A DNA stretch of 64,000 bases, taken from Polyangiaceae bacterium. Its GTDB lineage: Bacteria > Myxococcota_A > Polyangia > Polyangiales > Polyangiaceae. Both the position numbers and the translations under genes were made by a program. This document shows, piece by piece, positions 1-52,359 of this stretch. Location of the stretch: positions 1-64,000 of the forward strand of contig JALHPN010000008.1 in NCBI GenBank assembly GCA_022842465.1, in the 5' to 3' direction. Numbering within the stretch: the first letter of the stretch is position 1; each line of letters begins with the position of its first letter. The notes under the pieces were generated by a model. That model had not been told where the DNA came from. It searched no databases and saw only the letters and a program-made list of their open reading frames with translations.

Positions 1-1208
1 GCCTCCGGCGATGCCTCCGCGAAGGCGCGGAGGCGCGCGACGAGCGCCGCCGTGATCGCGCCGACGTCCCGCGGCGCGACGACGTCGCCGAGGTGGTGCC
101 GCCGCGCGAGCCGCGTGAGCGCGCCCTCCGGCGAGAGGACGAGGACGGGGCGCCCGAGGTACATGAGCTCGAAGATCTTCGCCGGGTAGATGCGCTCGAC
201 GTTCGGCACCGCGTCGAGGATGCAGAGGGTGAGGTGGCTCGCGGAGAGCGAGGCGAGGACCTCCCCGTGCGGGACGTACCCGTGCGTCGTGACGCCGAGC
301 GACTCCGTCCCGTCGAACGCGGCGCGCTCCGTCTCCACGATGCGACCGAGGAAGCGCACCTGGAGGAGCTTCGCGAGCTCGGGCTCCTCCGCGTGGACCC
401 GCCTCACCGCGTCGAGGAAACCCTTCGCGCTCGTGAGCTTGAAGACCGTCCCGGCGTACGTCACGACGAAGCGGTCCGCGGGAGGAAGCGGCAGCGTGCT
501 CGGGTAGTCGTCGGGGTCGAAGCCGTTTGGGATGCACGTCACGTGGCCAGGGTCGAGGAAGCGGTAGCGCCGGAGGAGCTCCTCGCGGAACTCCTCGGTC
601 GCCGTCGTCACGCGGTGCGCGCAGCGGAGCAGCGTCGGCTCGAGCACGTCGCCCGCGAGGCGGGCCGCGCCGCCGCCCATCATCTCGTACGTCGTCCGGT
701 ACGTGCTCCACTCGTCGCGGTAGTCGAGGACGACGCCGACGCCCCGCCGCGCGCGCGCGAGCGGCGCGAGGAGGAACTGCGAGAACGGCGGGGCGCTCAC
801 GACCATCACGTCATCAAGGTTCTTGCGGAGGCGATCCGCGAGCGCGAGCTCCGCGGCCGGCACCCAGAGTACCTGCGGATCGGGCACGAGCGCCGTCTTC
901 GCCGCCGCCGTCAGCGCCGAGAGGACGCGTCGCTGGACCGTCGGGGTCGTGGTGGTCTGCCACGCGGCCTGCTTCAGCGCGTAGCCGGGCTCGAACGTCC
1001 GCGCGCGCGTGATCTCGAGGCCCTCGGGGAGGTCCCCCTCCAAGGACGCGTCCGTCAGCGGGACGGACGGATTCGCCACCGTCAGCACGGACGGTCGGAC
1101 CCCCTGCGACGGTAGGTACTTGACGAGCTTCGACACGCGCTGCACCCCTGCGCCGCCCACGGGCGGGAAGTTGTAGGCGACGACGAGCGCGCGGAGAGAG
1201 CCGTCCAC
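1..1208 (-). CDS. Glycosyltransferase, GT4-like (3' end beyond window)
   Basis: This gene is missing from the ORF track because it runs off the left edge. Reading the minus strand from GTG at 1208 gives an uninterrupted frame of about 400 codons beginning MDGSLRALVVAYNFPPVGGA. The N-terminal 'FPPVGGAGVQR' loop, a middle 'YAGTVFKL' segment and a C-terminal 'KIFELMYLGRPVLVL' stretch are the hallmarks of GT-B fold, family 4 glycosyltransferases, where the last segment holds the nucleotide-sugar-binding glutamate. It probably adds a sugar to a surface polysaccharide, as flippase, ligase and GT2 genes lie nearby. It once probably followed the flippase gene directly (see the 52-bp repeat at 1221). 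The donor sugar cannot be told. Confidence 0.85.
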   Translation of the reverse strand, partial: MDGSLRALVVAYNFPPVGGAGVQRVSKLVKYLPSQGVRPSVLTVANPSVPLTDASLEGDLPEGLEITRARTFEPGYALKQAAWQTTTTPTVQRRVLSALTAAAKTALVPDPQVLWVPAAELALADRLRKNLDDVMVVSAPPFSQFLLAPLARARRGVGVVLDYRDEWSTYRTTYEMMGGGAARLAGDVLEPTLLRCAHRVTTATEEFREELLRRYRFLDPGHVTCIPNGFDPDDYPSTLPLPPADRFVVTYAGTVFKLTSAKGFLDAVRRVHAEEPELAKLLQVRFLGRIVETERAAFDGTESLGVTTHGYVPHGEVLASLSASHLTLCILDAVPNVERIYPAKIFELMYLGRPVLVLSPEGALTRLARRHHLGDVVAPRDVGAITAALVARLRAFAEASPE

Positions 1209-1220: not shown

Positions 1221-1272
1221 ACCACGCGCTCACGCGCGACGTCGACGCTTCCGTGCCGCGGCCACGACGGTG
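1221..1272. repeat. 52-bp direct repeat, copy 1 (of flippase 3' end)
   Basis: It matches 4021-4072 at 49 of 52 positions. On the minus strand it encodes the last residues of the flippase (TVVAAARKRRRRA, then stop), but here it is detached from the rest of that gene. All three differences are synonymous in the flippase frame. The two copies are exactly 2800 bp apart and flank the lipoprotein/HTTM cassette. Confidence 0.9.
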
Positions 1273-1329
1273 TCACGGCGCCATTCCGTCGTTGACCGAA
1301 GCGGTCCCCCACGTGACGATTCGAGGCTC

Positions 1330-2787
1330 ATGCGAAGCTTCCTCCTCTCGGCCGCTATCCCCCTCGCTTGCGTCTCGGGCGCCCTGCTCCTCGTCGCCGC
1401 CTGCGAAGACGACCCCAACGGCTTCGGCGGCTTCGACGCCGGCGCCGAAGGCTCCCTCACGCCGACGCCCACGTCGACGAGCCCGACGCCTCTGCCGGAC
1501 GGCGCCGTCCCCGAGGCGGGCTCTCGGCTCGTCACCGTTCGCGTCCGCGACAGGGGAAACCAGCCCGTGGCGTCCGCCTCCGTGCTCTTCAGCAACGCCG
1601 CGGGCGACGCGCTCGGGACCGTCCAGGCCGACGCGACCGGCGTGGCCACCTTCGCCGCGCCGTCCGGCGCGCAGGTGACCGTCGGCTTCGGCGACGAGCT
1701 CACGCCGAGGCTCGTCACGATCACGGGAGTCGAGCCTGGCGATGACTTGCTCGCCGCCGACATGCGTCCCGGCGCGAGCGGTGACTCGCGCACCTTTCGG
1801 ATCGCGTCGCTCCCTCCGGACCCGCCTGCCGGGTCCCAGACCTACGCCCGCCTCGGCGACTGCTACGAGAACGTCGGCGCGCCCCCCACCAGCGTCGCGT
1901 TCTCCCCGGACTGCTCTCAGGGGGCGACGACGGTCCCGCTCGTCGTCGAGACGACGGACGGCCTCGTCACGGTGGGGTGGACCGCCGCGAAGAACCTCGC
2001 ACCCCTCGCCGACGGCGGAGAGACGCCCGTGACGCTGCCGGCGTGGTCCACGAGCACCCTCGCGCAGACCGTCACGGCGACGAACGTGGCCGGCGCGGGT
2101 GGCAGCTTCTACGTCTCGTTCGGCGAGATCGCGAGCGGCGTCGTTCTCCGGACGACGGAATACGCCGGGTCCGAGGGCGCCGAGCGAAGCGCCACGTTCC
2201 TCGCCCACCCAGGCTTCGGCGAAGCGCTCCAGGCCGGCGCCCTCGCCTACGACTACTCCGTCTCCGGCAGCGGCATGGGGATCGTCGGGGCCAGCGTGCG
2301 CGCGGCGGCGCCGACGGCGGACGGCGGCGTGAGCATCGATTGGGCGAACCAGCTTCCCGGCTTCACCTCTGCCGGGATCGACGCCGGCGCGCCGTCGCGT
2401 CCTTACGTGTCATGGACCTCCGGCGGATCGCTCGCGAGCGCCGACGGCACCTTCGTCATCCTGTTCTGGGACGAGCCGCGCGACGCCGGGACGGCCCAGG
2501 GCTCCTGGACGATCCTCGCACCGCCGACCGCCACCTCCGTGCAGACGCCCGCGCTCCCGCCCGGCTTCAAGGGCGCGCCGAGGACGGTTCCGAGCTACGA
2601 CGACCCGCCGCGCATCGTCACGGTGGAAGCCTCGTTCGTGCCCGGGTACGCGCAGCTCCGCGCCGCAGCGACGGCCTTGTCCCCGTCCGACGGGCTCCTC
2701 AACGGCAACACGAGCGCGAACGCGCCGGCGCTGCCGAGCAATGGGGCCGCCGTCCGGTTCACCGCGTACACGCGGAACAACGACTGA
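1330..2787 (+). CDS. Surface lipoprotein with Ig-like/carboxypeptidase-regulatory-type domain
   Basis: A 485-residue protein starting at ATG 1330. The track's longer start at 1270 lies inside the repeat and lacks a signal peptide. The N-terminus MRSFLLSAAIPLACVSGALLLVAACEDD is a lipoprotein signal with lipobox 'LVAAC', so Cys25 should be acylated. A Gly/Ala/Thr/Pro/Ser linker follows, then a segment at about 65-130 ('VRVRDRGNQPVASASVLF...ATGVATF') resembling carboxypeptidase-regulatory-like beta-sandwich domains. The rest is beta-rich with no enzyme motif seen. It lies 17 bp upstream of an HTTM-like gene and inside a repeat-flanked cassette. Its function is unknown; it is likely an outer-surface protein. 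Confidence 0.85.
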   Translation: MRSFLLSAAIPLACVSGALLLVAACEDDPNGFGGFDAGAEGSLTPTPTSTSPTPLPDGAVPEAGSRLVTVRVRDRGNQPVASASVLFSNAAGDALGTVQADATGVATFAAPSGAQVTVGFGDELTPRLVTITGVEPGDDLLAADMRPGASGDSRTFRIASLPPDPPAGSQTYARLGDCYENVGAPPTSVAFSPDCSQGATTVPLVVETTDGLVTVGWTAAKNLAPLADGGETPVTLPAWSTSTLAQTVTATNVAGAGGSFYVSFGEIASGVVLRTTEYAGSEGAERSATFLAHPGFGEALQAGALAYDYSVSGSGMGIVGASVRAAAPTADGGVSIDWANQLPGFTSAGIDAGAPSRPYVSWTSGGSLASADGTFVILFWDEPRDAGTAQGSWTILAPPTATSVQTPALPPGFKGAPRTVPSYDDPPRIVTVEASFVPGYAQLRAAATALSPSDGLLNGNTSANAPALPSNGAAVRFTAYTRNND

Positions 2788-2804
2788 CCGACAGGCGACG
2801 CACG

Positions 2805-4007
2805 GTGCGAGGCTGGTTTGATGCCCGCGCGCGCGTGATCGCCGACGACCCCGTGCTCGCGCGCTACGGCGCGATGCTCGGGCTCCTCCAGGCGGTCACG
2901 GCGATCGCCTGGCTCGACCTCAAGCACGTCGCGCGTCTCCTGACCGGCGACGACGTCGTCTGCTGGCCCTTCTTCCCGGCTTGCGACGTCGTCCGCGCGC
3001 ACCTCTCGCCGTCCCTCGTGCGGCAGCTCGTGGCCGTCTACGCCGGCCTCGGCGTGGCCGCCGCCGTCGCCTTCCTCATGCGACGCGCGGCGGGGCTCGG
3101 CACGCTGCTCGCGTCCGCCTCTGTCGGCGCGTTCGTGCACGCGCTCGACTACCGCATGCGCCTGAACCAGACCTACATGCTGGCCTGGGTGGTGCTCGTC
3201 TTCGCGCTCGCGCGCGACACGCGCAAGGCGCTCACCGCGCTCCTCGTCGCGTTCTACGTCGCGTCGGGCGTCCTCAAGCTCGGCCCCGAGTGGCTGAGCG
3301 GCCGGGCGCTCTACGCGCGTCCGTGGCTCGTCCCCGACGCGCTCGTGCCGGCCGCGTGCGCCTACGTCGTGCTCCTCGAGGTCGTGCTCGTCTGGGGCCT
3401 CCTCTCGCGGAGACGCGTCGTGCGCGCGCTCACGCTCGCGCAGCTCGCGCTGTTCCACCTCGTCTCGTTCCCCGTCGTCGGCTGGTACTACCCGGTCCTC
3501 ATGGCAGGCCTCCTGTCGCTCTTCGTGCTCGGCGACGGAGCGCCGGTCACGTTCGCGATCCTCCTCGAGGGCCTCGGCCCGCGCGCGTCCGCGCTACGCG
3601 TGGTCGGGGTCTTCGGCGCGCTCCAGCTCGTGCCGGCGTGCTTCCGGGGCGACGCGGCGCTCACGGGGGAGGGGCGGCTCGTCGCCCTGCACATGTTCGA
3701 CGCGAAGGTGAGCTGCGAGGGCGGCGCCGTCGTGCGTGCGGGAGCGCGGGCGCCGGTCACGATCCCGCTCGTGGCCGAGGGCAGCGACACGCGATCGAAG
3801 TGCGACCCCATCATCCTGCTCGCGCACGCGCGCCTCGTTTGCAGAGAGCCGTGGGCGCGCGCGCCGGACACGCGCGTGTCCGTGGAGGTCGACGCGAAGC
3901 GCGCGACCGATCCCGCGATGCGACCGCTCGTGCGGATCCCCGACGTGTGTGCGCACGCGCCCGACTATGCCCTCCTCCGAGAGAACGCCTGGATCGTGGC
4001 GCGCTGA
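2805..4007 (+). CDS. HTTM-like (VKG-carboxylase-type) membrane protein
   Basis: The reading frame is hidden inside a longer ORF in the track. GTG at 2805, 17 bp after the lipoprotein stop, gives 400 residues. There are about seven hydrophobic helices between residues 20 and 280. The motif 'VASGVLKLGPEWLSGRALY' matches the conserved lysine/tryptophan region of HTTM proteins, relatives of vitamin K-dependent gamma-carboxylase. A soluble tail of about 110 residues with several cysteines follows. Bacterial HTTM proteins are largely uncharacterised. Tight spacing suggests co-transcription with the lipoprotein, which might be its substrate or partner; that is inference. Confidence 0.75.
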   Translation: MRGWFDARARVIADDPVLARYGAMLGLLQAVTAIAWLDLKHVARLLTGDDVVCWPFFPACDVVRAHLSPSLVRQLVAVYAGLGVAAAVAFLMRRAAGLGTLLASASVGAFVHALDYRMRLNQTYMLAWVVLVFALARDTRKALTALLVAFYVASGVLKLGPEWLSGRALYARPWLVPDALVPAACAYVVLLEVVLVWGLLSRRRVVRALTLAQLALFHLVSFPVVGWYYPVLMAGLLSLFVLGDGAPVTFAILLEGLGPRASALRVVGVFGALQLVPACFRGDAALTGEGRLVALHMFDAKVSCEGGAVVRAGARAPVTIPLVAEGSDTRSKCDPIILLAHARLVCREPWARAPDTRVSVEVDAKRATDPAMRPLVRIPDVCAHAPDYALLRENAWIVAR

Positions 4008-4020
4008 GGGACCGACCCCC

Positions 4021-4072
4021 ACCACGCGCTCACGCGCGGCGTCGACGCTTCCGCGCCGCGGCCACCACGGTG
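4021..4072. repeat. 52-bp direct repeat, copy 2 (inside flippase 3' end)
   Basis: Partner of 1221-1272. This copy is in its native context: it contains the last 14 codons and stop of the flippase plus 9 bp downstream. The repeat ends 13 bp after the HTTM gene stop. Confidence 0.9.
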
Positions 4073-5529
4073 AGGAACTCGCGCGTGATGCCGGGCGCGA
4101 GGACGAAGGCGCCGCCCACGAAGGCCGCCGCGCCGACGAGGATCTCGAGCGGCAGCCCGACCAGCGGGGGCGCCCCGAAGCCTCGCCACGCTTGCCGCAC
4201 TCCGTAGACCGCCGCGACCATCGGCGCGCAGGCGAGCAGGGGCGGGACGCAGCGTCCGAGGAGCGTCGACATCGGGATGCCGTCGGCCTTCCAGACCGAG
4301 TACTGCCCGATGAGCAGCGCCGCGGCGAAGCCGAACCCGACCGAGAAGCATGCGACGAGGGGACCCAGGCGGCCGATCGTGAGCATGGCGACCACGATGA
4401 CGACGAGCTTCACGAAGGAGCACATCATCGCGACGCGCGGTCGGTCGTTCGCGATGAGGTATCCCGAGAGGTGCCAGGTGAGCGGCCGGAGGAGAGAGAG
4501 GACGCAGAGGATCGTGAGCATCGGCGCCACCGGCGCCCACACCGGACGGAGGACGAGCGTGACGAGCGTGTCCGCGACGGCGCCGAAGCCGATGGCGACG
4601 GGGAAGATGACGAAGGCGAGGAGTCCGGCCGTCGAGACGAGCGCCCGCTTCCGCTCTTCGCCCTCCATCGCGACGAAGCTCGGGAGGAGCACCTCCGCGA
4701 CCTGCTCGCCGATCTGATCGGCCGGGACGTCGGCGAGGTTGTAGGCGACCTGGTACTGCGCCATCACCTGCGGCCCGTAGAGGTACGAGACGAGCAGGTT
4801 GTCGACGCGCGCCGCAGCGAACTCGCACACGGCCTGGAACCAGGTCGGGAGCCCGAAGGCGAGGATGGATCGATAGACGTCGCCCGAGAGGCGATGCGGC
4901 GCAGCCCAGGCCTTCCGATCGGCCATCGAGATGTAGAGGATCGCGCGGAGGCCGCTCCGTACGAGGTTCGCGATGATGATGGCCCACCCGCCGAAGCCGA
5001 GCACGGCGAGGGAGAGCGAGACGACGGTGTTCGCGAGGTCCGTCCCGGCCCGCGCGCCGGCGATCGCCCGGAAGCGAAGGTTCCGGAGGACGATCCGCTC
5101 GGGGACGTACCCGATGCGGTCGAGGAGGATGACGAGCGCCGCGCCCGGGACGAAGACGGCCGCGTGGGGCGCGTTCAGGAGCGTCGCGAGCGGGACCGCG
5201 AGCGCCGTCACGGCCGCGAGCGCGAGGACCCCGGTGCCGAGGTGGAGGACCGTGGCGTGGAAGACCACGCGCGGACCCTCGCCGCCGCGGGCGAGGACGA
5301 ACTGCCCGACGCCGAGGTTCGAGGCCTGGTTCGTCAGGAGCATGAGGATCATCGCCGCACCCACCTCGCCGATCGCGCTCGGATCGAGGTAGTGCGTGAT
5401 CGCGACGGAGCCGACGAGGCCGAGCACGCGCGTGACGAGGCCGGCGGAGATCGTCCAGCTCGCGCCGCGCACCGCGGTCGCCTCCATCGACGGCTGCGGC
5501 TCGGACGGCTCGGACGTCGGCTCGGACAT
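4030..5529 (-). CDS. Polysaccharide flippase, Wzx/MATE-like
   Basis: A 499-residue protein starting at ATG 5529 (MSEPTSEPSE); the upstream ATG in the track adds only an Arg-rich leader. It has about 12-14 predicted transmembrane helices, an N-terminal 'ATAVRGASWTISAGLVTRVLGLVGSV' typical of oligosaccharide-flippase (PST) exporters, and a basic C-terminus RKRRRRA. Such proteins move lipid-linked oligosaccharide repeat units across the inner membrane. It is divergent from the O-antigen ligase-like gene and, before insertion of the 2.8-kb cassette, probably sat about 21 bp upstream of the glycosyltransferase at 1208. Confidence 0.9.
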   Translation of the reverse strand: MSEPTSEPSEPQPSMEATAVRGASWTISAGLVTRVLGLVGSVAITHYLDPSAIGEVGAAMILMLLTNQASNLGVGQFVLARGGEGPRVVFHATVLHLGTGVLALAAVTALAVPLATLLNAPHAAVFVPGAALVILLDRIGYVPERIVLRNLRFRAIAGARAGTDLANTVVSLSLAVLGFGGWAIIIANLVRSGLRAILYISMADRKAWAAPHRLSGDVYRSILAFGLPTWFQAVCEFAAARVDNLLVSYLYGPQVMAQYQVAYNLADVPADQIGEQVAEVLLPSFVAMEGEERKRALVSTAGLLAFVIFPVAIGFGAVADTLVTLVLRPVWAPVAPMLTILCVLSLLRPLTWHLSGYLIANDRPRVAMMCSFVKLVVIVVAMLTIGRLGPLVACFSVGFGFAAALLIGQYSVWKADGIPMSTLLGRCVPPLLACAPMVAAVYGVRQAWRGFGAPPLVGLPLEILVGAAAFVGGAFVLAPGITREFLTVVAAARKRRRRA

Positions 5530-7010: not shown

Positions 7011-8060
7011 TCAGGAGTAGACGACGGCCGGATCGGGCCGGTCTTCGGCGGTGAGGCGCTCGGGCTTCTCCGGCCAGTCGCGATCGAAGAGGCCGTGCCG
7101 CACGAGCCCGACCGCGAAGCCGACGCCGTGCGAGACGTGGAGGACGGGGAAGATGCTCCACACGAGCGGGATCGTCGCGAGCCCCTCACGCCGGCCGACG
7201 CGTACGGCCTCGAGGGCCGTCGCGAGCGCGTAGGAGCCGAAGGCGAGGGGCGCGAGGCGGTGCCAGCGGTTCGTGGCGAGGAGCGCCGCGCCGCCCACCG
7301 TCATCAGGAAGGGGAGGGCGGGGCGGAGGGAGAGGAACTTTCCGTGCTTCACGAGCGTCCGCGCCCGCCCGCGGCCGTACTTGAAGTACTGCGTGGCGAG
7401 CGCCTCGTACGACGCGCGCGGGTGGTAGAAGACGACGATGTCGCGCGAGAGGTAGACCTTCCCGCCCGCCGCCACGATGCGCTGGTTCAGCTCGGCGTCC
7501 TCGTTCGTGACGGCCTTCGGATCGTAGAGGCCGACCTCTTCGAACACGGACCGGCGGAACGCGCCGAGGAAGACGGTGTCGACGAAGCCCTCGCTCTCGG
7601 CCGATCGGTACTTCGCGCCGCCGACGCCGAGCGGGCTGTCGAGCGCCGCGCACAGCGCGCGCTGGAAGAGCGTCGTCGCGCGCGCGCGCTGGGCGCCGCC
7701 CACGTTGTCCGCGCCCGTCTTCGCGAGCGCTTCGACGCAGTTCCGGACGTAGTCCGGGGCGTACTCGCAGTGCACGTCCATCCGGACGACGACATCCCCT
7801 CGTGACGCGCGGATCATCGCGTTCATCCCGGCGGCCTGGATCCGATCGGGGTTGTCGATCATGCGCACGCGCGGATCGGCCTCCGAGATGCGAGCGAGGA
7901 TCTCGCGCGTCCGGTCGGTGCTCCGTCCGTCGGCGACGAGGACCTCGAAGCGATCGGCGGGGTAGTCCTGGGCGAGCACGCTGCGGAGGCAGGTCTCGAG
8001 GAAGGCCTCCTCGTTCAGGCATGGCATCGCGATCGTGACGAACGGCAGCGGGCTCGGCAT
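7011..8060 (-). CDS. GT2 glycosyltransferase (succinoglycan ExoA-like)
   Basis: A 349-residue protein starting at ATG 8060 (MPSPLPFVTIAMPCLNEE). It has a GT-A fold: the N-terminal nucleotide-binding strand, 'VLVADGRSTDRT' at about 38-49, the metal-binding DxD-type motif 'VRMDVH' at about 91-96, and 'VTNEDAELNQRI' as acceptor-site ED motif. Two or three hydrophobic helices at 240-330 suggest a membrane-attached enzyme like ExoA. It should transfer an activated sugar to a polysaccharide intermediate on the cytoplasmic face. It converges with the ligase gene with no intergenic base. Confidence 0.9.
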   Translation of the reverse strand: MPSPLPFVTIAMPCLNEEAFLETCLRSVLAQDYPADRFEVLVADGRSTDRTREILARISEADPRVRMIDNPDRIQAAGMNAMIRASRGDVVVRMDVHCEYAPDYVRNCVEALAKTGADNVGGAQRARATTLFQRALCAALDSPLGVGGAKYRSAESEGFVDTVFLGAFRRSVFEEVGLYDPKAVTNEDAELNQRIVAAGGKVYLSRDIVVFYHPRASYEALATQYFKYGRGRARTLVKHGKFLSLRPALPFLMTVGGAALLATNRWHRLAPLAFGSYALATALEAVRVGRREGLATIPLVWSIFPVLHVSHGVGFAVGLVRHGLFDRDWPEKPERLTAEDRPDPAVVYS

Positions 8061-8064
8061 GGAC

Positions 8065-8106
8065 GGACCGCGAGGATACCGGCGGGAGGGGTGGCGCGGT
8101 ACTCTC
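8065..8106. repeat. 42-bp imperfect repeat, copy 1
   Basis: Matches 10739-10780 at 37 of 42 positions in the same orientation. It lies 4 bp upstream of the GT2 start (minus strand); the other copy lies just upstream of the DUF362 start (plus strand). It may be a dispersed small repeat or a regulatory element. It codes for nothing recognisable. Confidence 0.6.
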
Positions 8107-8268
8107 CAGCGGCTTCCAGGACGACACGAGGTGCCCAAGTCGCGCGTGCGGAGCCGCGTAGGCATGACCGCACCGTCGCGCAGTTGTCGTCGATGTCCGA
8201 ACGCGTAGCGCGGAAGTGGCTGGAAATCCTGGTAGCTTCAGCGGCACGCGGTGTGTTGAGGCTGATAC

Positions 8269-9282
8269 ATGCGTTCGCTCCCCGTACTCGTCGCCGTCGC
8301 CATGCTCACCACCGTCGCCACGGTCCGCGAGGCGCGCGCCTGCTCTGGGTTCTGCTTCCCGGCTCGTCTCCTGCCGTCGGGGCAGGGGGCGACGGTGCCG
8401 GCCAACGCGGGCGCGTTGCCGTTCTACCTCGGAGGGAGGCTTGCTGCGGCGCCGTCCGACGCCGGCGCCGAGGTCCCGACGCTCCGTGACGGCGCCGGGA
8501 ACGTCGTTCCGACGAGCGTCGAGGCGTTGCCGGAGGGCTCGCTGCGACGGAGCGGCTTCGAGCGCGTCGTCCGGTGGAGCTCCGAGCTGGCTCCGGGGCC
8601 GTACACCTTCGAGGTGCCCTCGCCGTGCGCGACCAGCTTCTCCGCGAAAGCGTCGTTCACCGTCGTGCCCGCGGCGCCGCCTCCGGCGAAGCTCGGGACG
8701 GTGACGGCGACGTCGGCTCGGGGCCTCGTCCTCGCCGAGGAGAGAGCAGCCTCGTGCGTCGCGAACATCGACGCCGCGCAGGCGAAGCTCTCGCTCGTGC
8801 CTGATCCGAGCTTCGCGCCCTTCGCGGCCGTGGCGCTCTACGAGGTCGAGGTCGACGGCGCGCTCTGGCGCGGCTCCGTCGTCGACTACGGGCCCGGGAG
8901 GCTCGGGCCCCCCTCGGCGTTCGACGCTTTCACGCTGATCGCGGATTGCAGGCCGAGCAGCGTCGGCGACAGCGTGACGGTCCTCCCCGAAGGGGACCAC
9001 GACGTCACCGTCCGCGCGAGGCTCCCGGCTCTCGCGGGCGTCCCGGAGCTCTCGACGACGACGCGCGTATCGCTGTCCTGTGCCTCGGCCTCGAGCGGCG
9101 CAGCTTCGAGCGGCGCGCCTTCGAGCGGCGCATCTTCGAGCGACTCCGGCGGGGAAGGCGGGTGCCGCATGAGCCCGGGATCGGGCTCGGGAGCTGGCGG
9201 ATTCGCGGGCGCGCTCGGGCTGGCCGCAGCGCTCGCCACGACGCTCCGCCGCGCGCGACGCACCTCCGCGCGGCCGAGCTGA
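8269..9282 (+). CDS. Secreted protein with MYXO-CTERM-like sorting tail
   Basis: A 337-residue protein with a Sec signal peptide (MRSLPVLVAVAMLTTVATVREARA, cleavage before Cys25-Ser). An early Cys pair 'ACSGFCFP' is followed by beta-rich sequence with several more cysteines, a Ser/Gly/Ala linker at about 275-300, then 'GGCRMSPGS', a hydrophobic Gly/Ala/Leu stretch and Arg-rich end. That tripartite Cys-helix-Arg tail resembles MYXO-CTERM, thought to be processed by a myxosortase for surface anchoring. The ATG has GAGG 10 nt upstream. The function of the mature domain is unknown. Confidence 0.8.
   Translation: MRSLPVLVAVAMLTTVATVREARACSGFCFPARLLPSGQGATVPANAGALPFYLGGRLAAAPSDAGAEVPTLRDGAGNVVPTSVEALPEGSLRRSGFERVVRWSSELAPGPYTFEVPSPCATSFSAKASFTVVPAAPPPAKLGTVTATSARGLVLAEERAASCVANIDAAQAKLSLVPDPSFAPFAAVALYEVEVDGALWRGSVVDYGPGRLGPPSAFDAFTLIADCRPSSVGDSVTVLPEGDHDVTVRARLPALAGVPELSTTTRVSLSCASASSGAASSGAPSSGASSSDSGGEGGCRMSPGSGSGAGGFAGALGLAAALATTLRRARRTSARPS
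9091..9142 (+). repeat. 15-bp tandem repeat encoding SSGA units
   Basis: About 3.5 copies of a 15-bp unit beginning tcgagcggcgc lie in the linker just before the sorting tail of the 337-residue secreted protein. Length variation here would only lengthen or shorten the stalk. Confidence 0.8.
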
Positions 9283-9536
9283 GCTCCGCGAGCGCTCACC
9301 GCGGGAGGCCTCGCGGGGCGAGCTGGCGCAGCCGCTTGCAGCGCTCGGAGCTGAAGATCCAGGTGGTCCATGCCGCAACATCTGCTGCAGGGGCTCTTTC
9401 CGGGGCACCTCGTATGGCGCGGCGTTTGCGGTGTGTGCCAGCCACGAAGGAAGGCCTTCACATGGTCGGGGTGAGACGGTCTCGCCTCCATCTTCGTCGG
9501 AGGCGCAAGAGCCTCCCACCTTCAGATGAGGTCATC

Positions 9537-10688
9537 ATGCGCGCCCGGTCGCTCCTGCAGATTGCCGCCGTTCTCGTGCCGTGTGTCGCCGCGTGCTCCC
9601 TCGTCAACGAGGACGTCGGGGGGGCCGACTCCGCGTTGCGGAGCGACGCGGGGCAGCCGGCCGATGGCTCCGTCGACGCAGGGGCGACCGATTGCCAGGA
9701 GGCTGCGACGACCCTCCTCGACGAGGACGATGCCTCGTTGTCCTTGGAAACCGTCCAGGCTACCTCGCTCGGTATCGTCGTTCTCAACACGACCGGACAA
9801 GTGATGAGCAACGGACAGCCCGCGGGCGAGATCCTTCGGTACGACGCGAACGGCGCCGCCACGCGGCTCTACGCGCCGCAGCTGAACGCCGGAGCGCTGA
9901 GCTCGATGGCTGCGAAGCGAAACGGCGACGTGTTCTTCGTCGAGGCCGACTTCACGTCGCCTCGCTCGGAGTATTACAAGCTGGTTGCCCTTCGAGGAGG
10001 CCAACGCAGACCTCTGATCTCGTTCCCTGAAGGGGCCGGAATCAGGCTGATCCGGGCCACGGACGACGCTCTCTTCATCGAGCGAAGAGATGTCGCCGCG
10101 CCCCGGGCTCGCCACATCACGCGCATCGACCTCTCGAACAACGTCGCAACGGACATCGGTGGGAGCGGGTACGATCTCCACAGCGAGCAGGTGTCGGGTG
10201 CGGACTTCTGGTTCGGGGAGTTCGACGCTTCCACGCGGGAGTTCAAGAAGCTCTGGAGGACGCCGACGACCGCAACGAGCGCAGGCGCCCAGGCCGAAGT
10301 CGCGCACGACTGCAAGGGTGAGGTCACGGTCCTGCCCTCGGGCTTCGCGTGTGCGTCGCCTGCCCTGCAGCGTCTCCAGCGCTACGACAGCGCTTTCGCG
10401 AACCCGGTGACGCTCTTCCAGCCGTCGTCACCGGCCTCCGTGAGAGTGTGGGGGCACACCGACTCGACGCTCCTGGTCGCGCAACAGGGATCACGGGGAG
10501 CAGGACCCGTCGAGGCGAGCATGTACACGGTCCCGGTCAGCGGCGGGGCGCCCACGCGCCAATCCTGCGGCGATTGGCACGTTCAAGGAGCCGACGTCTA
10601 CGCGGGTCGCGCCTACTGGTCCGAGTGGTTGAACGACGAGACCTCTCTCACGGTCCGACAGCGACTTCGAAGCACCTCGATGCCCTGA
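9537..10688 (+). CDS. Lipoprotein, possible beta-propeller
   Basis: A 383-residue protein starting at ATG 9537, with ATGAGG 6 nt upstream; the track's longer ORF start is not real. The signal peptide MRARSLLQIAAVLVPCVAACS ends in lipobox 'VAAC'. A short Asp/Gly/Ser linker precedes a domain with repeated patterns such as 'NGDVFFVEAD', 'TDDALFIERRD', 'GADFWFGEFD' and 'GRAYWSEW', spaced like blades of a beta-propeller. No catalytic motif is visible. It has its own leader region and probably forms a single-gene transcript ending at the hairpin at 10717. Confidence 0.8.
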   Translation: MRARSLLQIAAVLVPCVAACSLVNEDVGGADSALRSDAGQPADGSVDAGATDCQEAATTLLDEDDASLSLETVQATSLGIVVLNTTGQVMSNGQPAGEILRYDANGAATRLYAPQLNAGALSSMAAKRNGDVFFVEADFTSPRSEYYKLVALRGGQRRPLISFPEGAGIRLIRATDDALFIERRDVAAPRARHITRIDLSNNVATDIGGSGYDLHSEQVSGADFWFGEFDASTREFKKLWRTPTTATSAGAQAEVAHDCKGEVTVLPSGFACASPALQRLQRYDSAFANPVTLFQPSSPASVRVWGHTDSTLLVAQQGSRGAGPVEASMYTVPVSGGAPTRQSCGDWHVQGADVYAGRAYWSEWLNDETSLTVRQRLRSTSMP

Positions 10689-10716
10689 CGATCTCGAGAG
10701 CATCTCCGCGCGGGAG

Positions 10717-10748
10717 CTCGCGGTCCGGCCTGAAGACCGGACCGCGAG
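10717..10748 (+). terminator. Strong 12-bp hairpin after the lipoprotein gene
   Basis: A perfect 12-bp inverted repeat (10717-10728 with 10737-10748, core CGCGGTCCGG / CCGGACCGCG) around the 8-nt loop CCTGAAGA, 29 bp after the lipoprotein stop. No U-run follows, so it is a terminator candidate only. Its 3' arm is also the first part of the 42-bp repeat. Confidence 0.55.
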
Positions 10749-10780
10749 GATTCCGGCGCGAGGGAAGGCGCGGTACGCTC
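10739..10780. repeat. 42-bp imperfect repeat, copy 2
   Basis: Partner of 8065-8106. It ends 7 bp before the DUF362 start codon and overlaps the 3' arm of the hairpin. Confidence 0.6.
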
Positions 10781-10787: not shown

Positions 10788-12146
10788 ATGTCCGGGACCT
10801 CGCGACGCAAAATCTTGATGGCTGCCGGCGCGATCGGCCTCACGGGGACGGCGCTCGCCCTGCGGCGGAAGCTCGGGACCGCCGTCGGCAAGTACACCCA
10901 GCACGCCTCCTTCACCGCCACGCCTCCGCTCGTCCCGCACGATCCGGCGAAGGATCGGACGCGCCTCCACGTCGCCCGCGGGGGCTCGCCGGCGGCGAAC
11001 GTCGACGACGTCCTCGCGAAGCTCGGCGGCATCGGCACGGTCGTCGGGACGGACGACGTCGTCGTCGTGAAGGTCTCCGCCCAGTGGTGGAACCAGGGGA
11101 TGACGAACGTGGCGGCCGTGAAGCGCCTCGTCGAGCACGTCCTCGAGCGGCCCGGCTTCAAGGGAGAGATCGTCGTCTTCGAGAACACGCATTTCCGCCT
11201 CGCGAACGGCTCCGGCCTCTCACGCGCGTGGACGCGACCCTCGGATCGCAACGTCGACGTCCCCGGGTGGACGACGATGGGCGATCTCGTCGCCCACTTC
11301 CGCGACCGCAAGGCCCCCGTCTCGTTCGTCGGCCTTGTCGACGCGGGCGAGAGCAGCTTGTCCGGCGACGCGTGGCACGACCCCACCCACGAGCACGGCA
11401 CCTACGGCGGCGACGGCCGCGGCCCGATCCCGAAGGGCGACCCGCGTGACGGCTACCACTGGGACTTCGAGCGCGCGTTCCGCCTCGCGAAGAGCTGGAC
11501 GGAGGAGGCGCGGACGCCGCTCAGCTGGCCTCGCTTCACTTCCGGCGGAGGCCTCGTCGTCGATCTCCAGGACGGCGTCTTCCGTCGCGAGGGCGCCCGC
11601 CTCGTGAAGACGGACCGGAAGCTCGTCTGGATCAACATGACGACGGCGAACGAGCACGGGTCGACCGGCTTCACGGGCGCCTGCAAGTCGACGATGGGCG
11701 TCGTCGACATGAGCGCGGGGAGGCTCGGCACGCATCCCCTCGCGTCCGGCTACGCGTCGGTCCACTACTTCGGTCACGGCCGGCCGAGCGCGACGTGGCG
11801 CATGGCCGGGCCGCTCGCGCACTTCGCGCGCGAGGTCCGCTCGCCGGATCTGATCCTCACCGTCGCCGAGTGGGTCGCGTTCGATCGCGCGGGCTACGCG
11901 GGCACCGAGGACATCCGGCACTCGGCGGAGACGTGCTCGCAGACGAAGACGATCATCGCCGGAACGGATCCGGTCGCGATCGACGTCTGGGCGGTGCGAA
12001 ACCTCCTCGCGGACGTCCCGAGCGCGAACACGAAGGCGCTCCTCGACCTCGACGATCCCGACGCGATGGTGACGAAGTTCCTCCGGTACTACCGCGAGGT
12101 CCGCGGGAAGGGCACGCTCGAGACCGCGCTCGTGGACGTCGCGTGA
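10788..12146 (+). CDS. DUF362 family protein, Tat-exported
   Basis: A 452-residue protein beginning MSGTSRRKILMAAGAIGLTGTALAL, a twin-arginine signal (SRRKIL plus hydrophobic core), so it is probably exported folded. The body matches my recollection of DUF362: 'VVVVKVSAQWWNQGMTNVAAVKRLVEHVL' near 85-115, 'TTANEHGSTGFTGACKSTMGVVDM' near 285-310, and 'TIIAGTDPVAIDVWAVRNLL' near 390-410. The biochemical role of DUF362 is not settled. Here no ferredoxin-type CxxCxxC cluster is seen. The stop overlaps the start of the next gene by GTGA. Confidence 0.85.
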   Translation: MSGTSRRKILMAAGAIGLTGTALALRRKLGTAVGKYTQHASFTATPPLVPHDPAKDRTRLHVARGGSPAANVDDVLAKLGGIGTVVGTDDVVVVKVSAQWWNQGMTNVAAVKRLVEHVLERPGFKGEIVVFENTHFRLANGSGLSRAWTRPSDRNVDVPGWTTMGDLVAHFRDRKAPVSFVGLVDAGESSLSGDAWHDPTHEHGTYGGDGRGPIPKGDPRDGYHWDFERAFRLAKSWTEEARTPLSWPRFTSGGGLVVDLQDGVFRREGARLVKTDRKLVWINMTTANEHGSTGFTGACKSTMGVVDMSAGRLGTHPLASGYASVHYFGHGRPSATWRMAGPLAHFAREVRSPDLILTVAEWVAFDRAGYAGTEDIRHSAETCSQTKTIIAGTDPVAIDVWAVRNLLADVPSANTKALLDLDDPDAMVTKFLRYYREVRGKGTLETALVDVA

Positions 12147-32435: not shown

Positions 32436-32515
32436 CGTGTCAAAGGCCGCGCGCCCGTTCCGGGGCGTGCGGGGCTGTTACGAGACGCTGAAAGAACCGA
32501 AGCCGGCGTGACCTG
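32436..32515. repeat. 80-bp imperfect copy of the island-end sequence
   Basis: It aligns without gaps to 35541-35620, the first 80 bp of the integrative element beyond the anticodon-loop end of the att core. The similarity begins exactly at 'cgtgtcaa', the last 8 bp of the 46-bp att core, and ends abruptly at 'gacctggg'. Both ends are identical or nearly so; the middle 26 bp diverge. It also supplies the out-of-frame end of the AbiEii remnant. Confidence 0.7.
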
Positions 32516-32808
32516 GGGTCTCGGGGGGCTCCGTGAGGACGTCGCCGAAGCCGACGTCGAGCCCGAACGGACCCGCGTAGATCTTCCCGGCGAGCATGGC
32601 CTGGACGCGGAACCTCCGGCGGTCGTAGACCGGGTGCTGCGCGCACGCTGGCGCGCTCGCCGAAGTGCTCGAACATGCGCGCGAGGAAGCGGTCGAAGAC
32701 GAGCACCTGCCGGAAGCGCCCCATGCCCGGCGCACCCGCCGCCGTGCGGATCCTGCGTTCGACCGCCTGCTTGAAGGCTTCGGGGCTAGCGTACGTCTGC
32801 GGCGGCAT
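32478..32808 (-). pseudogene. AbiEii/AbiGii nucleotidyltransferase toxin, remnant
   Basis: Two pieces in different frames look like one family. From ATG 32808: 'SPEAFKQAVERRIRTAAG' and 'MGRFRQVLVFDRFLARMFEHFG', an AbiEii-type N-terminus. After a frameshift and large internal deletion: 'RRFRVQAMLAGKIYAGPFGLDVGFGD', the later core. The nucleotidyltransferase GS/DxD motif is missing. The last 11 codons come from the island-end repeat (32436-32515), so the gene was cut off by that junction. It is distinct from the intact AbiEii at 36417. Confidence 0.65.
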
Positions 32809-35502: not shown

Positions 35503-35548
35503 TTTGTAGGCGCGATTGGGGTTGAACCAACGACCCCTACCGTGTCAA
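35503..35548. repeat. Attachment site, left (46-bp tRNA-Val 3' fragment)
   Basis: An exact 46-bp copy of 60778-60823, containing tRNA-Val from the anticodon loop to the 3' end plus 4 bp. The 5' half of the tRNA is absent here, so this is the displaced end of the target gene and marks the left boundary of the integrative element. Confidence 0.92.
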
Positions 35549-35620
35549 AGGCCGCGAAGGCGTTGCCGAGCGTGTCAGGTCGTTACGAGACCGCAGAAAA
35601 ACCGAAGCCGGCGTGACCTG
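35541..35620. repeat. Island-end sequence copied at 32436
   Basis: The first 80 bp of the element counted from the end of the att core. Its imperfect ungapped copy lies 3.1 kb away outside the element. Confidence 0.7.
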
Positions 35621-35654
35621 GGCGTTCCACCCGTTACGACGCGTTTCGGGCGAA

Positions 35655-35790: not shown

Positions 35791-36420
35791 ATGCCTGCTC
35801 CTGTCCCCTCGAAGGCCGATGTTCTGCGGCGCCTCGCGCGCCGGGGGCCCCTCCGCGCGCGCGATCTCGACGATGCGGGCGTTCCGCGCTCGTACCTCGC
35901 GCGTCTCGTCGAGCGCGGCGAGCTGGAGCACGCCGGGCGCGGCCTGTACCGCCTCCCGGACGCCGATGTCACCGAGCTCCACAGTCTCGTCGAGGTGAGC
36001 CTCCGCGTTCCGCACGCGATCGTCTGCCTCCTGAGCGCGCTCCAGGTGCACGGCCTCACGACCGAGCTGCCGCACGCGGTCTGGATCATGATCGACACGC
36101 GCGCGCGCGCGCCGAAGATCGACACGCCGGCCATCGAGGTCGTCCGCGCGCATGGCGCCGCGCGCGAGCACGGCGTCGAGCGCCGCCGCGTCGAGGGGGT
36201 CGAGGTGCAGATCACGAGCCCCGCGAAGACCGTCGCGGACTGCTTCCGATACCGGCGACACGTCGGCACGGAGGTGGCCGTGGCCGCGCTCCGGGACTAC
36301 CTCACGCTTTCGCGTCGCCGGGACCGACCGGCCCATGTGACGATCGATGCGCTCGCCGCGGCCGCAAAGGCCGACCGCGTGAGCACGGTGCTCCGTCCCT
36401 ACCTCGAGGCGCTCGCGTGA
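35791..36420 (+). CDS. abiEi: AbiEi-type antitoxin (type IV TA)
   Basis: A 209-residue protein. N-terminal winged helix ('SKADVLRRLARRGPLRARDLDDAGVPRSYLARLVERGELEHAGRGLYRLPD', about 7-58) is the DNA-binding domain, followed by the AbiEi C-terminal domain ('PHAIVCLLSALQVHGLTTELPHAVWIMID', 'ITSPAKTVADCFRYRRHVG'). Antagonises the AbiEii toxin and represses its own promoter. No Shine-Dalgarno is seen before the ATG, which abuts the operator. GTGA overlap with abiEii. Confidence 0.92.
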   Translation: MPAPVPSKADVLRRLARRGPLRARDLDDAGVPRSYLARLVERGELEHAGRGLYRLPDADVTELHSLVEVSLRVPHAIVCLLSALQVHGLTTELPHAVWIMIDTRARAPKIDTPAIEVVRAHGAAREHGVERRRVEGVEVQITSPAKTVADCFRYRRHVGTEVAVAALRDYLTLSRRRDRPAHVTIDALAAAAKADRVSTVLRPYLEALA

Positions 36421-37337
36421 CGAAGGCCCCCACGAACATCGGCGCGTCGGTTCGGGCGAGGCTCCTCAAGCTCTCGAAGGAGCGCCGGGAGGACTACCAA
36501 CTCCTGCTCGCGCGCTACGCGAACGAGCGCCTGCTCCATCGGCTCTCGACCTCGTCGCACGCCACGGGCTTCGTCCTCAAGGGCGCCGCCCTCTTCACCC
36601 TCTGGACGGGGCGCGCCCACCGCGCGACGCGTGACATCGATCTCCTCGGCTTCGGCGACCCGACCGAGGTGCGCCTGCGTGCCGTCTTCGAGGATGTCCT
36701 TCGCGCCGACGTCGTCGACGATGGTGTGCGCTTCGACGTGTCGTCGCTCGAGGTGGGCCCCATCCGCGAAGACCAAGAGTACGGCGGCGTCCGCATCACG
36801 CTGCGTGCCGAGATCGGGAGCGCTCGCGTCCGTCTCCAGGTCGACGTCGGGTTCGGCGACGCCATCACCCCGGGGCCCGAGCTCGTCGAGTTTCCAGCGC
36901 TCCTCGACTTCGACGCCCCGAAGCTGCGCGCCTACCCGCGCCCGACCGTCGTGGCCGAGAAGTTCGAGGCGATGGTGAAGCTCGGCATCGCGAACAGCCG
37001 CATGAAGGACTTCTTCGACGTCGTCATCATGTCGCGAACGTTCGCCTTCGACGGCGACGAGCTCGTGCGGGCGATCCGCGCGACGTTCAAGCGGCGGGGG
37101 ACGGCGCTGCCAGAGGCGCTCCCGCTGGCCCTCACCGACGAGTTCGCGGAGGACGCGACCAAGCGGGCGCAATGGGCGGGCTTCGTGCGCAAGGCCGGCG
37201 CATCGACCGAGCTTCGCGACTTCGGCGAGGTCGTACGCGAGGCCCGTGCCTTCCTCGCCGATCCGCTGGGCGCGTGCCGCGCGAGCGAGGCGTGGGCGCT
37301 TGAATGGCCGCCGCCCGGACCCTGGAAACGCCGATGA
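36417..37337 (+). CDS. abiEii: AbiEii-type nucleotidyltransferase toxin
   Basis: A 306-residue protein from GTG 36417. The DUF1814 nucleotidyltransferase core is complete: 'FVLKGAALFTLWTGRAHRATRDIDLLGFG' (about 48-77, metal-binding DxD within 'RDIDL'), 'RLQVDVGFGDAI' and the late 'PTVVAEKFEAMVKLGIANSRMKDFFDV' with the conserved Lys. The family blocks growth by modifying tRNA or other targets with nucleotides, giving abortive infection. Its convergent neighbour is the 1180-residue defence protein. Confidence 0.92.
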   Translation: MTKAPTNIGASVRARLLKLSKERREDYQLLLARYANERLLHRLSTSSHATGFVLKGAALFTLWTGRAHRATRDIDLLGFGDPTEVRLRAVFEDVLRADVVDDGVRFDVSSLEVGPIREDQEYGGVRITLRAEIGSARVRLQVDVGFGDAITPGPELVEFPALLDFDAPKLRAYPRPTVVAEKFEAMVKLGIANSRMKDFFDVVIMSRTFAFDGDELVRAIRATFKRRGTALPEALPLALTDEFAEDATKRAQWAGFVRKAGASTELRDFGEVVREARAFLADPLGACRASEAWALEWPPPGPWKRR

Positions 37338-37402: not shown

Positions 37403-40400
37403 TCAAGTGAGGTCCCGGAAGTCGTGAAGGCCCCGTGCCCCCAGCTCGTTGACGATAGTTCGAACGGCCGGCCGCGCGGGCTCGTGCTTCGCGCAGGCCG
37501 TGAGAACAGTGCGGACCTCCTCGCGCCACGTGTAGATGTGGCTGCCGCTCTCATCATTCAGAAGGTACAGACGGAGGGCTTGGAGCACCTCTCCCGGGTT
37601 CTTCTTGGCGAAGTTGGCGAGCTTCTTCAGCAGGAATGATCCGCCCTCGACGATCGTACCGCCGCGCAGAACGTCAGCCAGGCAGCGCAGCAGCCATAGC
37701 GGATCGAGCTTGCCCGCGACGACCCACCAACCGAACGCCGTCTCCTCCGGGCGCACGGTTTCGATCGGCGTCTTGGCGTGAGTCGTGCGCCGATGGTCCC
37801 AGAATCGCGTGAGCCGCTCGGTCACTTCATCTGGCACGTCCTTTACCCGCCAGAGTCGCCTTCCGATGAACTCCACGAGCTCGTGTCGAGCGTCCGCGGG
37901 CGCCGCCTCAAAGAAGAGGTCGAGCAATCCGTCCTCCCCACCAGGCGCAATCAGCCCGAGCGCGGTCAGCTCCCCTAGGTGCTGGGCCAGACGTTGCCAA
38001 CGCTCCTTGGCACCGAGGTCCGTCGCTGCCGGACGCTTCGGCATCTGCGTGATGGCTGCGCGATAGCGCGGTGCGAGGAGGCCGAAGAGCGCTCGGGTCG
38101 GCCAGTTCCAGCGCAGGAAGGCACCGAAGGCCGCCACGCCTACGTCGTGTGCACCGAAGAGGCGCTCTTCCTGGGTCTCCGACCAACGCGGATCGAGGAA
38201 GTGAAGTACCCCGAACCACCAGCCGAAGATTGCTCGGACAGCAGGAGAGGTCTCTTCGCCGACTCGGGTGGCAACAACATCGCGGAACTCGGGAGGCAGT
38301 CCGGCGTTGCGCCGGTCGCGCGACACCCACCGCGCGTACGAGATGGCGGCTTCGGCGGCGCGCCCCCGAATCGTGTTGATCCCGTGATCCTCGGGGTGTC
38401 GCCACGAGGCAAGGTTCTCCCGTTCGGGCGTCGGGTCCACGTCCTCGAGGAGCACGTGGATTGTTCGCCAGACTGATGGGCGCCGCGCACGGGGGATCTT
38501 CTCCTTCTGCAGCGCGGTGACCAGAAGGTCGGCCACGCTGCTCCGGCAGGACGCCCACGTCGGGTCGCGCGACTCCCATGGCATGACTTCGGGAAGCGGC
38601 TCGTCCGCCTGGCTCACGATCCAGTAAGCGAGTTCGAGGGTCTTCTCCCAATCGACGTTCACCTCGTCGGAGACGAGCGCCTCGCGGACTCCATCGGTGA
38701 CGGCTCGGACATACGCCGGGGCCAACTCGCGAACACGATCTTGCCGCTCGATGAATCGTCCAGGGTCGCGGGCGATCGCCTTCGCGAGCTCCCGGCCGAC
38801 GCCGGCCCGAGAGTGGTCGAGGAGACCTCGCGGCGGAACCCAGGCCCTGAGTCTGTCGATGACGTCATCCACCGCGAGCGCAGCAAGCTCGTCGCTCGAG
38901 AAGGGGCTCGTCGGCCCCACCCAAGCCTCGCCAACGACGGGGCGCGCCCGGACGTCCTCCGGCTCACCGCTCCGGGCGACAGCCTGCAGATACAGACTCT
39001 TGGCGGTCGCGGGCAGCTTCTCGACGATCGGACGCAGTTTTCGGAGCATCCACCACTCGCGGAGCTCCGCTCGCCGTCTGTTCTCCTCCGGTTCACCGCC
39101 AGCGATCTCCTGGAACAACTCCGGGCCGCGGAGCGCCATTCCGAGGAGGCGAGTGCGGTCGGCCTCGTCGACGTCGGCGAACGCTTCCCCGAGAAGGAGG
39201 CCGTACTCCCGCTCAACTTCGTGGTCGAAGAGGAGATCTGCCCGCGTCACCCACGCAACGGCACGCTCGGCGAGCTTCTCCCGCCGGACAGCCAAGACGT
39301 AAAGGGCGATGCGGCGAAAGATGGCGTATGGCCGACGTCGAAGGCTCTCAAAGAGCCATTCGTCCTGCCCGAGGTCGACGAGATGGATCGCTGCATCGCG
39401 GACGGCATCAACCAGCGCATCGAGAATGTCTTCAGTCCAGCCGGCATCCTCGATCGCTGGCCGCCAGCCTGCGGAATGGTCGCGCTCATCGTTCTCGTTG
39501 AGAGTAGACCTCACCGCGGTGTGAAGATGATCCGAAACGAGTTCGAAGAACGTGCGCGCCGAGCATGCCAGCAGCGCGGGGCCACTCTTGGCGAGCGCTT
39601 CGCCGTAGGCTGAGGGCGACAGGCGTGCTCTCACGTCGCGTGCGCGCGATACGGTGTGTTCGCTTTGACCGTTGGGAGCGAACGGTTCGAAGAGGCGGCG
39701 GGCGAAAGCGAGTGCCTCCTTCACGCGACCGGCGAGTGCTAGGTGCGCTGCGACATCCCCGAGGCGGTTCTCAACGAAGGGTCCGACGGGCCTACGCTCC
39801 TCGATCGCCTTTGAGAGTGCGGAGGTAAGCGAAGCTGCCACGTCTGCCGGCAATCGAAGGACCACCGCGAGAAGCGTGGAGACGACGTTAGGGTTCGCGG
39901 GCTTCTGCCCCAAGATCGACTTGAGCGCGACGGCGACCGGCTGGGGCGCTCTGGCTGCAATGCGATAGAGGTATCCGAGCTGGGCCCAAGGAGGGAACCG
40001 CGTAGCTCCGCTGGGTTCTTCGATCGGCTCTGGTGGATTCTCAAAGAACCCCAGTTTCAACAGCGGAGCGAGCCAGCGCGGATCATCTAGTCGCTCGAAG
40101 AGGTACGCGACGTGTTCGGGATGGGCGAGGTGTGATGCGACGATCTGTATCGTTGTCTCTGTCGGCTCGGCCTGCTCGCGAAGCAGGCGGTCGAGATCGT
40201 CGATGGACGTGTAGAAGTCGAGCACGCGCGAGAGCAGCATCTTCTCGAACCGATCAAACTGGTCGAGGAACTCCTGGTCGTTCCGTGCACGGGCCCCCAC
40301 TTCGAGGTGCGTTCGCGCTACGAACCACTTGCCGAAGCTCATCCAGAGTGCGGCGAGCGGAGCTGCCGCAGAGCGGTCGTCTCGGTGCCCGACGAACAAG

Positions 40401-40945
40401 CGGGCCGCGTTGTTGAGGTTGTTCAGCTGAACGTCTTGGTGCGCCTTGATGAGCGCCTCGAGACGAGCACCGGCCGAGGCCGGGAGAAGGTAGTGCAGCG
40501 GCTCGCGGTCGCGCAGTGCTTCAAGCGGCTGCGGCGTGGCTTCGGCCAGAGCACCGACGAGCGGTCGGTACTCGAGACGCGGAACCAGCCGCGGACCCAC
40601 GAGGATCTCAGGGAGACGGTTGCAGATGTCGCGGACGGCGTGCGCGAGGAAGTACTGCCAACCGGGAGGTCGCGGTTCGACGTGTCGTAGCTGCACCGCC
40701 CCGGCGTAGAGCGCGGCGAGATCGGTCTGCTTCTCTGCCAGCGTCTCGAACGCACGGCGGCGTCGCTCCGTCCACCACACCTCACCGGGGAACGGAGGCC
40801 CGGAGGGCTCGCGTGCGCCTCGCGACCTCGTCGAGCGCACCTTCCGTACCGTCGCCGGAGGCGCTGGCGTTCGCCTCACGTTGCCATCGGAGCCCTTCGC
40901 CCTCCGGATCGCTCGGGTCGAACCCTTCGCGTTACGAGCGCTCAC
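37403..40945 (-). CDS. 1180-residue protein of unknown function, end of defence operon
   Basis: Translation starts at GTG 40945, which overlaps the mrr stop (GTGA); the track start at 41200 lies inside mrr. After a basic, disordered N-terminus (about 50 residues, Arg/Lys-rich), the protein is almost entirely helical with regularly spaced Leu/Trp/Arg. Recognisable stretches: 'YFLAHAVRDICNRLPEIL', 'HPEHVAYLFERLDDPRWLAPLLKLGFFENPPEP', 'FPPWAQLGYLYRIAARAPQPVAVALKSIL', 'RAIFGWWFGVLHFLDPRW'. This looks like an alpha-solenoid. No Walker motif, nuclease motif, membrane helix or signal peptide was found. Probably a recognition or scaffold component of the operon; that is inference. Confidence 0.85.
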   Translation of the reverse strand: MSARNAKGSTRAIRRAKGSDGNVRRTPAPPATVRKVRSTRSRGAREPSGPPFPGEVWWTERRRRAFETLAEKQTDLAALYAGAVQLRHVEPRPPGWQYFLAHAVRDICNRLPEILVGPRLVPRLEYRPLVGALAEATPQPLEALRDREPLHYLLPASAGARLEALIKAHQDVQLNNLNNAARLFVGHRDDRSAAAPLAALWMSFGKWFVARTHLEVGARARNDQEFLDQFDRFEKMLLSRVLDFYTSIDDLDRLLREQAEPTETTIQIVASHLAHPEHVAYLFERLDDPRWLAPLLKLGFFENPPEPIEEPSGATRFPPWAQLGYLYRIAARAPQPVAVALKSILGQKPANPNVVSTLLAVVLRLPADVAASLTSALSKAIEERRPVGPFVENRLGDVAAHLALAGRVKEALAFARRLFEPFAPNGQSEHTVSRARDVRARLSPSAYGEALAKSGPALLACSARTFFELVSDHLHTAVRSTLNENDERDHSAGWRPAIEDAGWTEDILDALVDAVRDAAIHLVDLGQDEWLFESLRRRPYAIFRRIALYVLAVRREKLAERAVAWVTRADLLFDHEVEREYGLLLGEAFADVDEADRTRLLGMALRGPELFQEIAGGEPEENRRRAELREWWMLRKLRPIVEKLPATAKSLYLQAVARSGEPEDVRARPVVGEAWVGPTSPFSSDELAALAVDDVIDRLRAWVPPRGLLDHSRAGVGRELAKAIARDPGRFIERQDRVRELAPAYVRAVTDGVREALVSDEVNVDWEKTLELAYWIVSQADEPLPEVMPWESRDPTWASCRSSVADLLVTALQKEKIPRARRPSVWRTIHVLLEDVDPTPERENLASWRHPEDHGINTIRGRAAEAAISYARWVSRDRRNAGLPPEFRDVVATRVGEETSPAVRAIFGWWFGVLHFLDPRWSETQEERLFGAHDVGVAAFGAFLRWNWPTRALFGLLAPRYRAAITQMPKRPAATDLGAKERWQRLAQHLGELTALGLIAPGGEDGLLDLFFEAAPADARHELVEFIGRRLWRVKDVPDEVTERLTRFWDHRRTTHAKTPIETVRPEETAFGWWVVAGKLDPLWLLRCLADVLRGGTIVEGGSFLLKKLANFAKKNPGEVLQALRLYLLNDESGSHIYTWREEVRTVLTACAKHEPARPAVRTIVNELGARGLHDFRDLT

Positions 40946-51600: not shown

Positions 51601-52359
51601 TCAACTTGAAGAGGCGGGGGTGCCCTCGGTGCTCGCGCGCCACGGGCTGTCGCAGCTCTGCCGACGGAGCACTCGGTGGACCGTAACCGGGCGCCACTCC
51701 CCGCCTCGCTTGGTGGGCCGGCCCTCGTTCGTGAGCGCAGAGGCGATCGCGCGCAGCGAGAGGCCATGCCCTCGCAGCTCGATGATCCGGTTAACGGTCG
51801 CGAGCTCGTCATCGAGCTTGTACACGAGGAGGCGCCCGTCGGCGTCGCGCTCGTCCGCGCGCGTCCACCCAAGCGCGGGGCGGCCGAGCCGAACCCCCTC
51901 GCGGCGGAGATGCGCGAGCGCCTCGCGTGTCCGCTCGGAGGTCGCCTCGCGTTCCCACTGTGCGACGGACGTCAGAACGTTCAAGACGAGGCGTCCTGCT
52001 GCCGTGCGGGTGTCGATGGCGTCGCCAACGGAGAGCAGGGAGAAGCGCGCGCCGAAGTACTCGTCGACGAGCGTGCCCAGATCGCGAACCGAGCGAGTGA
52101 GCCGATCGAGCTTCACCACGAGCAGCCCGCTCGCGCGTCCGTCCGCGAGGGCCTTGAGGGCGACTTGAAGGCCGGGACGCGCGAGCGTCTTCGCCGAGTA
52201 GCCGGCGTCTTCGATGACGTCGACGAGCTCGAGGTCGAGCGCGAGGGCGTACGCCGCGAGCTTCTGCCGTTGGGCCTCGAGCGACACGCCGCCGTCGGCC
52301 TGACCCTCCGTGGAAACCCGAACGTACCCGATCACCTTTTCCCGTTGTCCGTGCGCCAT
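51601..52359 (-). CDS. Serine recombinase (resolvase-like)
   Basis: A 252-residue protein. Catalytic N-terminal domain 'GYVRVSTEGQADGGVSLEAQRQKLAAYA' with Ser16 in 'YVRVST', 'LLVVKLDRLTRSVRDLGTLVD' and 'LNVLTSVAQWEREATSERTREAL'. The C-terminal part contains the short recombinase helix-turn-helix ('GLSLRAIASALTNEGRPTKRGGEWRPVTVHRVLRR'). No large-serine-recombinase extension. Likely an invertase/resolvase or cassette integrator. It stands 167 bp upstream of hsdR and may have brought the defence operon into the element. Confidence 0.93.
   Translation of the reverse strand: MAHGQREKVIGYVRVSTEGQADGGVSLEAQRQKLAAYALALDLELVDVIEDAGYSAKTLARPGLQVALKALADGRASGLLVVKLDRLTRSVRDLGTLVDEYFGARFSLLSVGDAIDTRTAAGRLVLNVLTSVAQWEREATSERTREALAHLRREGVRLGRPALGWTRADERDADGRLLVYKLDDELATVNRIIELRGHGLSLRAIASALTNEGRPTKRGGEWRPVTVHRVLRRQSCDSPWRASTEGTPASSS

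Follow-up and report, generated by a model that had tools for sequence, protein, structure and literature searches.

Insertion with long target duplication was described by Nobusato et al. (2000) for restriction-modification genes in two Helicobacter pylori strains, as cited in later articles (PMC1643837, PMC3031569, PMC3154945), and the target duplications are given there as long and variable in length (PMC1643837, PMC3031569). As far as those articles portray the Helicobacter pattern, the locus described here is alike in that a gene block without a transposase lies between long, variable direct repeats equal to the target. It differs in its cargo (pairs of lipoprotein or exported-protein genes, not restriction-modification genes), in its host, a member of the Myxococcota, and in that no empty-site strain was found for the locus. 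In homology-facilitated illegitimate recombination (PMC3240628), foreign DNA is added through one joint that is homologous and another that is illegitimate, and a duplicated anchor can remain; no donor arrangement is seen for the present cassette. In the gene transpositions of Arabidopsis (PMC2869330), ordinary genes likewise lie between long direct repeats that are not those of a transposon; the repeats there also occur at the empty orthologous site. That host, however, is a eukaryote, and some of its repeats come from the source locus. Integrase islands share direct repeats equal to the 3′ end of a gene (their att repeats), whereas the 2.7-kb inserts found here carry no integrase and use a different target each time. 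The pattern itself is known; what is new is the host group, the cargo and the occurrence of several cases in one genome.

The window, the whole 64-kb stretch of DNA that was analysed, belongs to contig C8 of a 9.57-Mb assembly in 431 contigs; those of its relatives that carry names are MAGs labelled delta-proteobacterial or Myxococcales. Along its plus strand lie a GT4-like glycosyltransferase gene (3-1208, minus strand, start at 1208; PF13439/PF13579), which runs off the contig end, a repeat (1221-1272), a predicted lipoprotein gene (1330-2787, plus strand; lipobox ...LVAAC), a gene for a multi-helix membrane protein (2805-4007, plus strand), the second repeat copy (4021-4072) and a flippase (polysaccharide biosynthesis protein) gene (4030-5529, minus strand; PF13440, E=1.4e-41) with its stop codon at 4030-4032. 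The two 52-nt copies are direct repeats, identical at 49 of 52 positions (94.2%) and spaced by 2800 bp, and both edges of the pair are sharp. The copy at 4021-4072 belongs to the flippase gene itself, as its genuine 3′ end, whereas that at 1221-1272 is an orphan adjoining the glycosyltransferase. Only three dispersed direct repeats in the window, this pair among them, score at least 24 (+1/-2 scoring; the maximum in shuffled windows was 19). A search of the whole assembly with the flippase 3′ end returned these two copies only (E 5e-28 and 2e-16); the next match, at E 5e-4, is at background. Removal of one 2800-bp unit leaves 21 bp between the flippase stop and the glycosyltransferase start. 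The copies differ in three codons (GTG/GTC, GCG/GCA and CGC/CGT), each of them synonymous in the flippase frame. The initial annotation had recognised the repeat as the flippase end, the restored flippase-glycosyltransferase operon and the silent nature of all three differences, and each of these observations holds.

The inserted cassette proper (1273-4020, 2748 bp) has a GC content of 73.2%, like its flanks. It holds two genes only, neither of them a tyrosine or serine recombinase, it has no mobility gene and no terminal repeats common to other inserts, and no further copy of it was found in the same genome. About 57 bp precede its first gene and 13 bp follow the last. The lipoprotein has two distant paralogues in the genome, and the lipoprotein and membrane-protein genes also lie side by side in genome G010. 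Relatives of the membrane protein were found in only three other genomes among 184 of the order. Glycosyltransferase relatives at 50-71% occur in 24 further genomes of the order. Of the two products named at the outset, the lipoprotein stands, and the HTTM-like label is weak. The membrane protein has no match in Pfam and does not reach the gathering cut-off of the HTTM domain (PF05090); the label depends on one homologue with a sub-threshold match (E=0.0099, 15.9 bits, cut-off 27.7), so that the protein is at best remotely HTTM-like. A single-sequence fold prediction was too poor for use.

A second insert (8107-10737, 2631 bp), whose two genes (8269-9282 and 9537-10688) encode exported proteins, lies in the same window. 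It is bounded by a 43-nt repeat (8064-8106 and 10738-10780, 88% identical) and occupies the divergent intergenic region between another glycosyltransferase gene (7011-8060), upstream of which the left copy lies, and a DUF362 gene (10788-12146), with the right copy just upstream of it. Extension of the repeat into either neighbouring gene start is not significant (p=0.13 and 0.33). By eye, a terminator-like 12-bp inverted repeat (CTCGCGGTCCGG...CCGGACCGCGAG, 10716-10749) spans the right junction, with one arm mostly within the 43-nt repeat.

The window also contains an integrative island of about 25 kb in tRNA-Val (35503-60823), with a perfect 46-nt duplication of the tRNA end and a GC content of 67% against 71%. 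Its cargo includes AbiEi/AbiEii (35791-37337) and a Dsr1-like protein (37403-41200); three more genes, read by eye, resemble those for a type I restriction-modification subunit (45869-47284), for a resolvase (51601-52359) and, beside the tRNA, for an integrase. An 82-nt direct repeat (82%; 32436-32517 and 35541-35622), just left of the island and overlapping its left repeat edge, is possibly an older island end.

A wider repeat scan covered 1.33 Mb of the genome. It gave about seven repeat-flanked inserts, those of the window included, with repeats of 43 to about 400 nt (43, 52, 54, 77, 123, 337 and ~397 nt) and inserts of 1.65-17.6 kb. The cases outside the window are C3 (54-nt repeat, 1.65-kb insert), C5 (337 nt, 1.88 kb), C10 (~397 nt, 6.8 kb), C14 (123 nt, 17.2 kb) and C6 (77 nt, 17.6 kb). 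One repeat copy of C10 has decayed through a 219-nt deletion and loss of its stop codon. The weakest case is C6, which is at odds with a simple target duplication: its right copy is a fragment from the middle of a gene, and the surroundings are unrelated. A strict filter retains six isolated repeats in the 1.33 Mb, and the same scan of this sequence as shuffled triplets gave none in five trials. The proposed search of the genome for similar cassettes produced other repeat-flanked inserts and no copy of the cassette itself. In two other genomes the scan found one match, an ABC-type protein motif, in 389 kb (G010) and none in 400 kb (G030). The enrichment over these two (no convincing case in 0.79 Mb, P ~0.06) is suggestive only. 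The repeat around the homologue in genome G104 was considered as a second case and rejected; it is a MITE/REP-like palindrome, dispersed through that genome in about 40 copies (locus L126, 7610-7733 and 10760-10836), and this element provides the stop codon of the genes upstream of it.

Comparison with relatives had been proposed as a check for the cassette-free order. A flippase-glycosyltransferase arrangement of that kind was not found among the glycosyltransferases of 184 genomes of the order, among 58 flippase relatives or in the named genomes, and relatives show extensive rearrangement of the polysaccharide locus. In G101 (JACPFM01; flippase 62%, glycosyltransferase 66%), the nearest relative, a different pair of genes occupies this position, and no relic of the flippase end lies near the glycosyltransferase. 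At C3 an insert-free order was found. In relatives within the genus (G010, G008, G007 and others) rdgB and an outer-membrane-protein gene are adjacent; in the present genome they are separated by a lipoprotein gene followed by the two-gene insert. The 54-nt repeat contains the terminal codons of that lipoprotein gene as well as the end of the outer-membrane-protein gene. The neighbouring lipoprotein gene is likewise missing in the relatives, so the history of the site is complex. In G003 a tryptophanyl-tRNA-synthetase-like gene (locus L148, 206-1500) lies between rdgB and the outer-membrane-protein gene; this junction therefore takes different inserts in different species.

We regard it as somewhat probable that a two-gene segment of exogenous origin entered between the flippase and glycosyltransferase genes through an illegitimate insertion, not that of a transposon, and that the event duplicated about 52 bp of the landing site; the extra copy ahead of the glycosyltransferase gene would then probably be a drifting relic. 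The sequence and the further cases in the same genome lend good support to the reading of the locus as an inserted cassette with a duplicated target end, already put forward in the initial annotation. A DNA fragment may have been captured at a break with nicks tens to hundreds of base pairs apart, both overhangs being filled in and the captured fragment end-joined; two Ku genes are present in the genome. Replication could also have switched template into the fragment and returned upstream of its exit point. With the gene end present again in the duplicate, neither neighbour is disrupted, so that such insertions would survive selection, which would explain the retention of these events. The C3 repeat, covering the ends of two genes, is what duplication of a landing site leaves and fits a local duplication. 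Several observations count against target duplication. Where a repeat contains a gene end, it terminates in all five cases 0-17 nt past the stop codon (Fisher p ~5e-4, post hoc), and all eight changed codons in the three young cases (C8-1, C6 and C3) are synonymous, both of which are expected if the source was a homologue in a donor; further, the empty site of the window locus was not found, the slot in G101 being filled by two other genes.

The same observations bear on a possible, though unlikely, origin by one-sided homologous recombination. Here the cassette would already have been present in a related donor, in convergent orientation to the donor's flippase gene; a crossover within the flippase gene, combined with an illegitimate joint lying 52 nt inside the flippase end of the recipient, would make the relic the recipient's old end and the intact copy the donor's. 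This makes explicit the earlier proposal, not established, in which a homologous locus, and not local duplication, supplied the extra copy along with the cassette. The synonymous differences in the flippase end and the repeat edges just past stop codons fit a donor, and recombination of this type is documented in bacteria (PMC3240628). The C3 repeat fits local duplication; its inclusion of the second gene's end is unexpected if a donor insert adjoined the outer-membrane-protein gene. When the six coding cases are pooled, synonymous changes account for 23 of the 40 altered codons, about the expectation for one constrained and one free copy, and by our estimate three out of three synonymous changes would follow a local duplication with one constrained copy with a chance of ~0.2. 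For these reasons the three flippase sites are indecisive.

Insertion with target duplication could also be read more broadly. The lineage may have an unusually active gene-capture route that brings in small cassettes of exported proteins with target duplications of 40-400 bp and drives gene gain without mobile elements; extrapolation of the roughly seven cases in 1.33 Mb would give perhaps 40-50 events traceable in each genome. We consider this broader reading, taken as a whole, doubtful.

Ordinary operon reshuffling, with the two similar ends as a conserved motif rather than a duplication footprint, is improbable. The rearranged state of the polysaccharide locus among relatives would suit it, but such a motif has no other copy in the genome, and G101 lacks it near the glycosyltransferase. 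A mobile element that is non-autonomous, relies on an enzyme from another locus and leaves a target duplication was already disfavoured and appears very improbable. Several inserts in one genome and the membrane-protein and lipoprotein genes travelling as a pair speak for it. At the inserts, however, there are no terminal inverted repeats, no short target duplication of fixed length and no transposase, and no sequence is common to the insert ends (best 29, null 22-37); the variable repeat length and the unrelated ends argue against a transposase. The window insert is also single in its genome, and the repeat flanking the G104 homologue is an unrelated multi-copy element. An assembly artefact in a chimeric contig, for which the fragmented draft and 6.2% contamination could be cited, is scarcely credible, as several contigs show this architecture, the genes are intact, and a misjoin through a long shared k-mer is impossible because the copies differ at three sites.

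Capture of a two-gene segment with duplication of its landing site would be an instance of a known but little-studied route of bacterial gene gain. Little is understood of how non-mobile genes come into the large genomes of myxobacteria. As readable scars of such events, long target duplications could date them through the divergence of their repeats. Such scars point to testable mechanisms of repair or replication, and with several of them in one genome this lineage is a candidate for studying gene capture.
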